64,000 bases of DNA, from positions 105,314 through 169,313 of the forward strand of contig NZ_JAFKID010000011.1 of the NCBI RefSeq assembly GCF_017306545.1. The letters run 5' to 3'. The notes under the pieces were generated by a model. That model was not told the DNA's origin. It made no database searches and was given only the letters and a program-made list of their open reading frames with translations. This document shows positions 20,500 through 55,918 of this stretch, one piece after another (within the stretch, counting starts at the first letter, position 1; the number at the start of each line of letters is the position of its first letter). The translations under genes and the position numbers were made by a program. Origin of the DNA: Mesorhizobium sp. (GTDB lineage Bacteria > Pseudomonadota > Alphaproteobacteria > Rhizobiales > Rhizobiaceae).

Positions 20500-21735
20500 C
20501 TAGCTCAAATCCGGTGTGCGGTCAAACAGGCGGCGATGTTCCTTGAGCGCGTAGGTGTCGGTCATGCCGGCGATGAAATCGGCGACCGAGCGCGCCTTGA
20601 TGCGCTCCTCCGCCCGGTCCAGCCCCTCGCGCCAGCCCTCGGGCATGGCGCGCGGATCGGCGTAGTAGGCGTCGAACAGGTCCTTCACCACCTGCTCGGC
20701 GTCGGCGCGCACGCGCATCACTTCGGGATGGCGGTAAAGATGGCCGTAGAGGAAGGCCTTCAGTTCCTTCTCCTTTGCCGCCATGGCCGGCGAGAAGGCC
20801 ACGATGGGCTCGCCGGCGGCGCGCACGGCCTGAGGCGACCGCGGCGCGATGCGGGCAAGGTTGGCCGAGGCCTGCGCAATGACGTCCTCGACCATGGCGG
20901 TGATCTGCCGCCGCATCAGTTCATGCCCGGTGCGGACCGGGTCGAGGTGCGGATAGCGCTCGCGCACGCCTTTCAGGATGGCGCCCGGCAGCGCCAGGTC
21001 CGCCAGCATGTCCAGCTTCAAAAGGCCGGAGCGCAGCCCGTCGTCGATATCGTGCGTGTCATAGGCGATATCGTCGGCAAGCGCCGCGCACTGGGCCTCG
21101 ATGCCGGCGAAGCTTGAAAGTTCCAGATCGTGCAACTCGTTGTAGTTGCGGATGGACGGCGGCACCGGGCCGGCAAGCCCCCTGCCCGCCGCGTCCGTCA
21201 GCGGGCCGTTGTGCTTGACCAGCCCTTCCAGCGTCTCCCACGTCAGGTTCAGCCCGTCGAACTCGGCATAGCGGTGCTCCAGCCGCGTGACGATCCTGAG
21301 CGACTGGGCGTTGTGGTCGAAGCCGCCCCAGCTCGCCATCTTTTCGTTCAGCGCGTCTTCGCCAGTGTGGCCGAAGGGCGTGTGACCAAAATCGTGCACC
21401 AGGGCGACGGCTTCGGCGAGGTCCTCGTCCACCCTAAGCGCCCGCGCCAGAGCGCGGGCGATCTGTGCGACCTCGATGGTGTGGGTGAGCCGTGTGCGGT
21501 AGTGGTCGCCCTCATGCGCGACGAAAACCTGCGTCTTGTGCTTCAGGCGGCGGAATGCGGTGGAATGGATGATACGGTCGCGGTCGCGCTGGAAAGGCGT
21601 GCGCGTCGGGCTTTCGGGCTCGGCGAACAGCCGCCCGCGCGAGCGCGCCGGATCGCAGGCATAGGGCGCGCGCGGCCGATAGCCGAAGCCGATGTCGCCG
21701 AGGCCCGCCGCCGCCTGCTGATTGTCTTCGTTCAT
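20500..21735 (-). CDS. dgt: deoxyguanosinetriphosphate triphosphohydrolase-like protein
   Basis: A 411-residue HD-domain dNTP triphosphohydrolase (dGTPase family) that hydrolyses dGTP to deoxyguanosine and tripolyphosphate. Metal-binding residues are seen in [17 protein letters not shown] (H85), [15 protein letters not shown] (H114, D115) and the later [12 protein letters not shown]. Start ATG 21735 has GGGAG close upstream. The leader holds an unusual tandem repeat whose last mini-ORF stop overlaps this ATG as ATGA, suggesting translational coupling. Confidence 0.92.
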
Positions 21736-21831
21736 GCTCCCACCGCGCGCCTGCGGCGCGACTTCATACTTCCGCCGCGCGCCGCTGGCGCGACTTCATA
21801 CTTCCACCGCGCGCCGCCGGCGCGACTTCAT
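21732..21831 (-). other. three tandem overlapping 11-codon mini-ORFs coupled to dgt
   Basis: Reading the minus strand, ATG codons at 21831, 21799 and 21767 open frames [22 protein letters not shown] and [11 protein letters not shown]. Each ends in TGA, and each TGA overlaps the next ATG as ATGA; the third overlaps the dgt ATG at 21735. A GGAAG or GGGAG element precedes the starts of the second and third frames and dgt. This is a direct reading; whether the peptides are made is unknown. The pattern could also be only a by-product of a 32-bp tandem duplication of the dgt start region. Confidence 0.35.
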
Positions 21832-21859
21832 ACTTCCGCCGCGCGCCGCCGGCGCGACT
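21739..21859. repeat. 32-bp tandem repeat upstream of dgt
   Basis: Three full units of exactly 32 bp (21757-21788, 21789-21820, 21821-21852), each beginning CGCGACTTCATACTTCC, with partial units on both sides. They differ at only two or three positions. No spacers are present, so it is not a CRISPR array. It fills most of the gap between dgt and the divergent erpA. Confidence 0.9.
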
Positions 21860-21882
21860 GGGGCCGGTTGACTTTGCCCCAG

Positions 21883-21911
21883 TTGACTTGGCCCTCCCCG
21901 CTTCATACCTA
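21883..21911 (+). promoter_or_regulatory. candidate promoter of erpA
   Basis: TTGACT (21883-21888), a 17-bp spacer and TACCTA (21906-21911) lie about 30 bp before the erpA start. The -35 is good and the -10 weak. Confidence 0.35.
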
Positions 21912-21941
21912 TCAAGGCGGAGCCAATGCAAGGTGAGCGCG

Positions 21942-22283
21942 ATGGGTGCCGAAGCCGCCACGACCGTTGAAATGACAGACGCCGCAGCGAAGCGCATCAC
22001 GCGCATCGTCGCGGCAGAACCGGGCAAAACGGCATTGCGCGTCGCCGTCGAGGGCGGCGGGTGCTCCGGTTTTTCCTATCGCTTCGACCTCGTGGACGGC
22101 CGCAACGACGACGACGTCGCCATCGAGAAGAACGGCGCCACGCTTCTGATCGACGACCTGTCGCTGGTCTATATGGGGGGCTCGGTGGTCGATTTCGTCG
22201 ACGACCTGATGGGCCAGTCGTTCCAGATCAAGAACCCGAACGCCGTCGCTTCCTGCGGCTGCGGCACCAGCTTCTCCGTCTGA
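21942..22283 (+). CDS. erpA: A-type iron-sulfur cluster carrier (ErpA/IscA family)
   Basis: A 113-residue A-type scaffold that delivers Fe-S clusters to apo-enzymes. The three cluster cysteines are in place: C41 in VEGGGCSGFSYRF, and C105 and C107 in the C-terminal SCGCGTSFSV. Choice among ErpA, IscA and SufA is made on overall resemblance to the rhizobial dgt-adjacent ErpA. ATG 21942 follows AGGTGAGC; a longer frame upstream lacks family similarity. It is divergent from dgt. Confidence 0.9.
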   Translation: MGAEAATTVEMTDAAAKRITRIVAAEPGKTALRVAVEGGGCSGFSYRFDLVDGRNDDDVAIEKNGATLLIDDLSLVYMGGSVVDFVDDLMGQSFQIKNPNAVASCGCGTSFSV

Positions 22284-51093: not shown

Positions 51094-51150
51094 GTCTTTC
51101 CTTTCAGTCGATCTCTACGCCGCCGTAGTTCCAGCGGCTACACCTTGGAG

Positions 51151-51233
51151 AAGGGGAGTAAGGGAATAGGGCAGTAGGGGAATAGGGAAGAACCCAACCT
51201 ATTGCCTTACTCCCCTATTCCCTTATTCCCCTA
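51151..51233. repeat. inverted array of degenerate 8-mers after rpsM
   Basis: The left arm (51151-51190) is five units fitting TARGGSAR in sequence: AAGGGGAG, TAAGGGAA, TAGGGCAG, TAGGGGAA, TAGGGAAG. The right arm (51199-51233) is four complementary units fitting YTAYTSCC. Together they form a long imperfect hairpin that begins immediately after the rpsM stop. A second copy lies at 55836-55918. Confidence 0.85.
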
Positions 51234-55835: not shown

Positions 55836-55918
55836 TAAGGGAGTAAGGGAATAAGGCAGTAGGGCAATATGTGTGCCCTTGTTGTTGCCTTACTCCCCTA
55901 TTCCCCTATTGCCTTAAA
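55836..55918. repeat. second inverted array of degenerate 8-mers, after rplF
   Basis: The left arm (55836-55867) reads TAAGGGAG, TAAGGGAA, TAAGGCAG, TAGGGCAA. The right arm (55882-55913) reads TTGTTGCC, TTACTCCC, CTATTCCC, CTATTGCC, followed by TTAAAT up to the rplF stop. Unit, order and position relative to the upstream stop codon match the copy at 51151-51233. Confidence 0.85.

Follow-up and report, generated by a model that had tools for sequence, protein, structure and literature searches.

The dgt gene of a Mesorhizobium sp. is preceded by a tandem array of a 32-bp unit whose start codons are chained to one another, and finally to dgt itself, by overlaps of four nucleotides. We consider it probable that this array is a tolerated tandem duplication of the dgt start region, possibly with translation coupled from one copy to the next. 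The array is a real feature, with an ordinary origin and an unusually neat outcome.

In the window (the whole 64,000-nt stretch of DNA that was analysed), the array occupies positions 21731-21859. TRF describes it as 129 bp with a period of 32, 4.0 copies, 90% matches and a score of 209, reported as a single array and with the top score among the 20 TRF rows for the window. Direct reading of both strands resolves it, in the direction of dgt (minus strand), into one truncated and three full copies. The truncated first copy (28 nt, 21832-21859, minus strand) has no ATG, while each of the full copies opens a frame of 11 codons: mini-ORF 1 at 21796-21831, mini-ORF 2 at 21764-21799 and mini-ORF 3 at 21732-21767, all on the minus strand. 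The ATGs of these frames lie at 21831, 21799 and 21767 and that of dgt at 21735; at all three junctions the TGA that ends a mini-ORF overlaps the next ATG as ATGA (-4 nt), the last of them at the dgt start. TRF and direct reading thus confirm what a sequence-only reading had described as three full 32-bp repeats with 11-codon frames and ATGA overlaps leading into dgt; its count of three full repeats was correct, and the truncated copy without an ATG adds a fourth. The frame of mini-ORF 1 is open further upstream, to an ATG at 21906 that lies inside the conserved block described below (36 codons). The same reading had noticed a GGAAG/GGGAG element before the second and third starts; the element is present, but GGAAG is found upstream of each mini-ORF start, the first included. 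The GGAAG/GGGAG element ends 1 nt 5' of the ATG, nearer than a normal Shine-Dalgarno element would stand; the better candidate is GGTGG, which lies some 6 nt upstream of mini-ORF 2 and of dgt. Elsewhere in the window, TRF also finds two short tandem repeats at 51147-51233 that flank position 51190 and have 16-base units that look mutually inverted, as well as a TAAGGCAG repeat at 55836-55869 that looks related to the repeats around 51190.

The array lies between dgt, which encodes a deoxyguanosinetriphosphate triphosphohydrolase (20500-21735, minus strand; NF002328, E 7.1e-218; PF13286 and PF01966), and its divergent neighbour erpA, which encodes an iron-sulfur cluster insertion protein (21942-22283, plus strand; NF010147, E 5.7e-37). 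There is no in-frame ATG, GTG or TTG between the dgt ATG and the upstream TGA, and an ATG is found at the corresponding position in relatives; judged by these observations, the dgt start at 21735 is sound. On the erpA side, a conserved block at 21883-21911 (plus strand) consists of TTGACT, 17 nt and TACCTA, which on the dgt strand read AAGTCAAC and TAGGTATGAA, and its spacing is constant among the leaders listed. We read this block as a putative erpA promoter because of its conservation and spacing, since a sigma-70 consensus scan of 21600-22100 returned no promoter. According to direct reading and the congeneric leaders, a second copy of AAGTCAAC lies at 21867-21874 (minus strand), next to the first at 21882-21889. 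This motif, likely the erpA -35 region on the opposite strand, recurs every 14-17 nt in the window (21867-21889) and in the leaders L018, L026, L255 and L267. The array lies between this erpA-side block and dgt: in 145 leaders, a median of 16 nt separates AAGTCAAC from the dgt ATG, compared to 146 nt in the window.

Chance cannot account for the tandem repeat; once the repeat is there, the ATGA chain contributes little further evidence. When 20000 32-mers of 67% GC, each containing one ATGA, were simulated and placed in tandem, 76% of them yielded an identical ATGA chain. The three overlaps amount to one fact. The first four bases of dgt are ATGA, so that a copy of its start context contains ATGA too, and the unit length of 32 is 2 mod 3; at such a period a TGA is read in the frame set by the ATG one copy earlier, and a chain of short frames can follow.

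Within the genus, the array DNA was found at full length by BLAST in one of 146 genomes, which is the source genome. At E ≤ 0.01 there were matches in 33 of the 146, with only a few candidates scored per genome; the 32 others matched over 20-79 bases, the longest being 79 bases at 74%. None of the 144 other scored congeneric dgt leaders contains the array, and the longest of them is 69 nt (145 scored; window and M. composti excepted). In a sample of 394 genomes of the family, drawn from a larger group, a 24-letter pattern of the unit was found in ten, with zero mismatches only in the source genome; the remaining nine genomes have three mismatches each, and the reversed control pattern was found in nine genomes. 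A search for further copies in the source genome gave nothing above control level, with five places outside the array at two mismatches each and five for the reversed control. A genus-wide pattern search at up to three mismatches matched at least 97 of 146 genomes, with controls matching too, and was kept out of the claim of uniqueness. Among the species found, M. composti (L044/L124) is the closest, with its dgt at 95%, and it does not have the array. In M. composti, erpA and dgt are separated by a GNAT-type acetyltransferase gene that stops 11 nt short of the dgt ATG; none of the other 144 scored congeneric leaders is long enough for such a gene.

The dgt leaders of related genomes show that the start of this gene has been duplicated more than once. 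Leaders were gathered from 146 congeneric genomes, 145 of which could be scored (L232 failed the motif search); M. composti (L124) was left out of the tandem and upstream-ATG counts because a gene occupies its dgt leader. The counts were computed over all 145 leaders, not every one of which was read by eye. With a minimum length of 12 nt and up to two mismatches allowed, tandem repeats are found in 10/144 dgt leaders and in 0/144 erpA stretches of equal length; erpA coding sequence is constrained, so that this control favours a duplication reading and the 0/144 is no proof of a mutational hotspot. The repeats in the ten leaders are of unrelated kinds, the 32-bp array being one of them. In L143, L194, L255 and L267 the AAGTCAAC motif is repeated every 14-15 nt, L020 has a GGCCAAAGTCAG-type repeat, and in L134, L031, L033 and L245 it is the dgt start itself that is repeated. 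L134, for instance, has two upstream units ATGATGAATGAGTTRGGGCC at steps of 20 nt followed by the dgt start ATGACGAATGAGTTGGGC; the units encode MMNELGP frames that end at the next ATGA, with the same arithmetic as in the window. The Mesorhizobium clade to which L134, L031, L033 and L245 belong (the L134-L245 clade) carries its own dgt start in 2-4 tandem copies at steps of 18-20 nt, and sequence comparison indicates that it duplicated this start independently of the array in the window.

These relatives bear on two suggestions of the sequence-only reading. One, that the array could be an expansion of the dgt start region, is supported, both by a unit that runs up to the dgt ATGA and by the independent duplication of the dgt start in another clade. 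The other was that copy-number variation with preserved ATGA overlaps would speak for a leader-peptide array; variation of this kind does occur. In the L134-L245 clade, 10 of the 12 genomes with an upstream ATG carry a mini-ORF that ends at the dgt ATGA; the sequence there is however unrelated to the array, and steps of 19, 18 and 15 nt also occur, so that the register is not strictly kept. A tree of erpA and the dgt start requires eight changes for "ATGA" and nine for any upstream ATG, with the carriers scattered. The tree (145 rows, 423 columns) is weak, with 19 of its 142 inner branches starred, and is thus used only to show this scatter.

The origin of the unit may lie in a palindromic repeat that is scattered through the genus. 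This repeat reads CCTCCCC..GGGGAGG and then TCGCGCC-GNA-GGCGCG-GGTGGGGTG, with GGTGGGG following GGCGCG; a 25-base core with up to two mismatches is present in 62/144 Mesorhizobium genomes (reversed control, 0), and the source genome has one copy at up to three mismatches. Loci with the two-hairpin form include L289, L290-L309, L154, L156-L159 and L165. Eleven loci from pattern or BLAST matches were inspected, two of which (L034 and L153) are the same place; the palindromic repeat is present at six, and the remaining four are within long open frames. The likeness to the array, first noticed in a BLAST listing, concerns the dgt-adjacent copy: at 21739-21762 (minus strand) this copy matches the second hairpin (GTCGCGCCGCAGGCGCG, one extra C, GGTGGG) with an alignment score of 43; the alignment spans 27 GC-rich positions and includes a single indel and a single mismatch. 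Outside the array, nothing in the 64-kb window scores above 28, and a score of 43 was reached by 0/3000 shuffled copies and 0/1500 shuffled arrays. The other array copies score 25, 31 and 26, and the array lacks the repeat's other hairpin. This is suggestive of, but does not prove, an array unit that is a remnant of the scattered repeat and was duplicated later.

We therefore propose the following scenario. A 32-bp segment immediately before dgt, which holds a GC-rich hairpin that may be the remnant of a palindromic repeat and which is bounded by the dgt ATGA, would have been duplicated in tandem by replication slippage to about four copies in the source lineage. Each copied start codon would then open a short frame ending at the start that follows. 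Ribosomes loading anywhere on the lengthened leader could undergo termination and reinitiation at the -4 nt overlaps and so be carried into dgt, and this reinitiation would make the insertion tolerable, in line with a proposal for mycobacterial MIRUs. Termination-reinitiation coupling at ATGA gene overlaps is described in the excerpts available from PMC6728339 and PMC10666635. Reinitiation is efficient at short overlaps (excerpts of PMC10666635 and PMC12548453), coupling being most efficient at spacings of -4 to +3 nt according to the latter, and in E. coli gene pairs the final 15 nt of the upstream partner are enough, according to the available part of PMC10666635. Excerpts of PMC12548453 also describe MIRUs as repeats that insert at start codons and whose ORF is coupled at -4 nt, an arrangement likely to limit their effect on expression. 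Coupled translation of the putative mini-ORFs into dgt is possible.

The most serious competitor, though an unlikely one in our estimate, is that the array is purely a by-product of slippage: the mini-ORFs would never be translated, dgt would initiate alone at 21735, and the array would have no effect. The predicted pairing with the anti-Shine-Dalgarno sequence over the 16 nt before the start is compatible with this for mini-ORFs 1 and 3, whose -5.0 kcal/mol is weak, 33.7% of the window's 1752 ATGs pairing at least as strongly; dgt pairs at -6.5 kcal/mol (16.1% of ATGs as strong or stronger), near the median of -6.1 kcal/mol over 145 congeneric dgt starts. The presence of the array in one genome only, among those searched, also fits a sequence without consequence. 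However, the pairing of mini-ORF 2 (-6.4 kcal/mol, 17.2%) is close to that of dgt, a Shine-Dalgarno sequence is dispensable at many alphaproteobacterial starts, and a transcript from upstream of the array would bring ribosomes to three AUGs before they reach dgt. By the pairing values the mini-ORFs are neither clearly initiation sites nor clearly not.

A more far-reaching view of the relatives is that dgt in Mesorhizobium forms a natural ladder of start duplications, mainly those in ATGA register or in frame that would deliver ribosomes; the array would have arrived convergently, outside mycobacteria, at an equivalent of MIRU coupling, and its copy number would set dGTPase output and, through it, the dNTP balance. 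We regard this as improbable. The narrower idea that the array is a selected device for delivering translation also seems improbable to us; here the coupled mini-ORFs would have been kept for increasing or stabilizing dgt translation, and selection would favour spacings of 2 mod 3 in every duplication of the start. An upstream ATG is found in 18/145 dgt leaders, or 17 when M. composti is left out, and in 14 of these 17 a mini-ORF stop overlaps the dgt ATGA; such mini-ORFs have at least three sequence-unrelated origins (the window, L024/L174/L212, and the L134-L245 clade), with spacings of 32, 20 and 11 nt, which favours a selected device. The remaining leaders show an in-frame upstream ATG at a 15-nt step (L209 and L224, 2/17) or a frame that ends 47 nt inside dgt (L265, 1/17). 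Against selection, the 19-nt spacing in L031, L033 and L245 sends the innermost mini-ORF 11 nt into dgt, and a register bias in start duplications is unsupported: among the hand-grouped spacing types (32, 20, 11, 19, 15 and 31 nt), 3/6 are 2 mod 3 where two are expected, and three or more would arise with a chance of about 0.32 in this hand count, which omits the 18-nt step of L245 and the extra ATGs inside the L134 and L237 units.

It is quite improbable, in our view, that the array acts through DNA or RNA hairpins, in the manner of REP-like elements, as a protein-binding site, a barrier between the divergent promoters or an mRNA-stability element, with the ATGs being incidental. The copies vary at 6 of 32 columns; none of these falls in the 12 stem columns of CGCGCC-NNN-GGCGCG and three fall in its loop, so that within the palindrome variation is confined to the 3-nt loop and the stem is invariant. 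These invariant stems could reflect selection on the hairpin; the absence of variation from the stems has a chance of 0.043, which is marginal for a test that was picked after viewing the data. The likeness of the last copy to the scattered palindromic repeat would fit a hairpin function as well, as would the predicted fold, in which adjacent copies pair with each other to form longer hairpins. The folding itself is not convincingly above that of shuffled sequences: the predicted leader fold (201 nt) has a z of -1.8, with 6/200 shuffles as low, and the array alone a z of -1.1, with 28/200 shuffles as low, which is just slightly better than the shuffles.

The idea raised by the sequence-only reading, a regulatory array of leader peptides that senses arginine or ribosome supply and thereby tunes dgt translation, has three Arg-rich frames and an unbroken -4 nt chain in its favour, but an array found at full length only in the source genome and nowhere else among the genomes searched makes it very improbable. 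Nor do the copies show a peptide kept through silent changes: the share of codon differences altering the amino acid is 2/2 between copies 1 and 2, 2/4 between copies 1 and 3 and 4/5 between copies 2 and 3. The possible single changes in the unit are 59 nonsynonymous, 28 synonymous and 3 stop, and the differences between copies are about what random changes would give; there is no sign of peptide conservation, or of a selected role for the mini-ORF peptides. The richness in arginine arises because the hairpin is GC-rich; arginine is encoded by CGC and CGG and, once, by AGG, and no run of scarce codons is evident. Rfam gave no match in 21600-22100 at E up to 1, a scan found no terminator-like site within 21731-21859, and a Pfam scan of the joined mini-peptides yielded nothing meaningful.

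If the array is a tolerated duplication of the dgt start region, then a chain of mini-ORFs coupled at -4 nt can arise at once from tandem duplication, without selection on the peptides, and caution is due before such chains are taken for leader-peptide regulators. If the coupling does carry ribosomes, the dgt leaders of Mesorhizobium, with 1 to 4 copies of the start in varied registers, would offer a set of natural variants for tandem reinitiation, and would also show which insertions before a gene are tolerated. Among the titles listed in literature searches, none of those on Mesorhizobium, dgt and erpA deals with this leader, and none describes tandem repeats of this kind at a start codon.

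MIRUs, reportedly described by Supply et al. in 1997, also occur in tandem, and their units are longer than 32 bp. They resemble the array, as far as the excerpts of PMC12548453 describe them, in that a short repeat sits at a start codon and a mini-ORF is joined at -4 nt to the next gene; they differ in being found in many places and apparently mobile, whereas the array occupies one locus in one genome. Since the array is not scattered, it does not count as a MIRU; its unit is 32 bp, and the likeness is one of architecture. The ATGA overlaps between genes (excerpts of PMC6728339 and PMC10666635) have the identical -4 nt junction, which in the array occurs three times consecutively; such overlaps join genes, whereas the upstream partners in the array are predicted 11-codon frames without known function. 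A very short ORF upstream of a gene is also found in rhizobial leader peptides such as peTrpL, which is described in the available parts of PMC7298713 and PMC10117765 as a leaderless part of a tryptophan attenuator; no attenuator features were found at the array. With the REP-like repeats of rhizobia the array shares a GC-rich hairpin, and its last copy matches one hairpin of the scattered repeat; the array holds part of one hairpin only, in tandem and not scattered, and we do not equate the scattered repeat with RIME, the rhizobial repeats reportedly described by Osteras et al. in 1995. A counterpart within the genus is the clade of L134, L031, L033 and L245, which also has tandem copies of the dgt start, mostly forming mini-ORFs that end at the dgt ATGA. 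Its sequence is unrelated to that of the array, its steps are 18-20 nt (15 nt and in frame in L209/L224), and its repeated unit is formed by the first codons of dgt itself.
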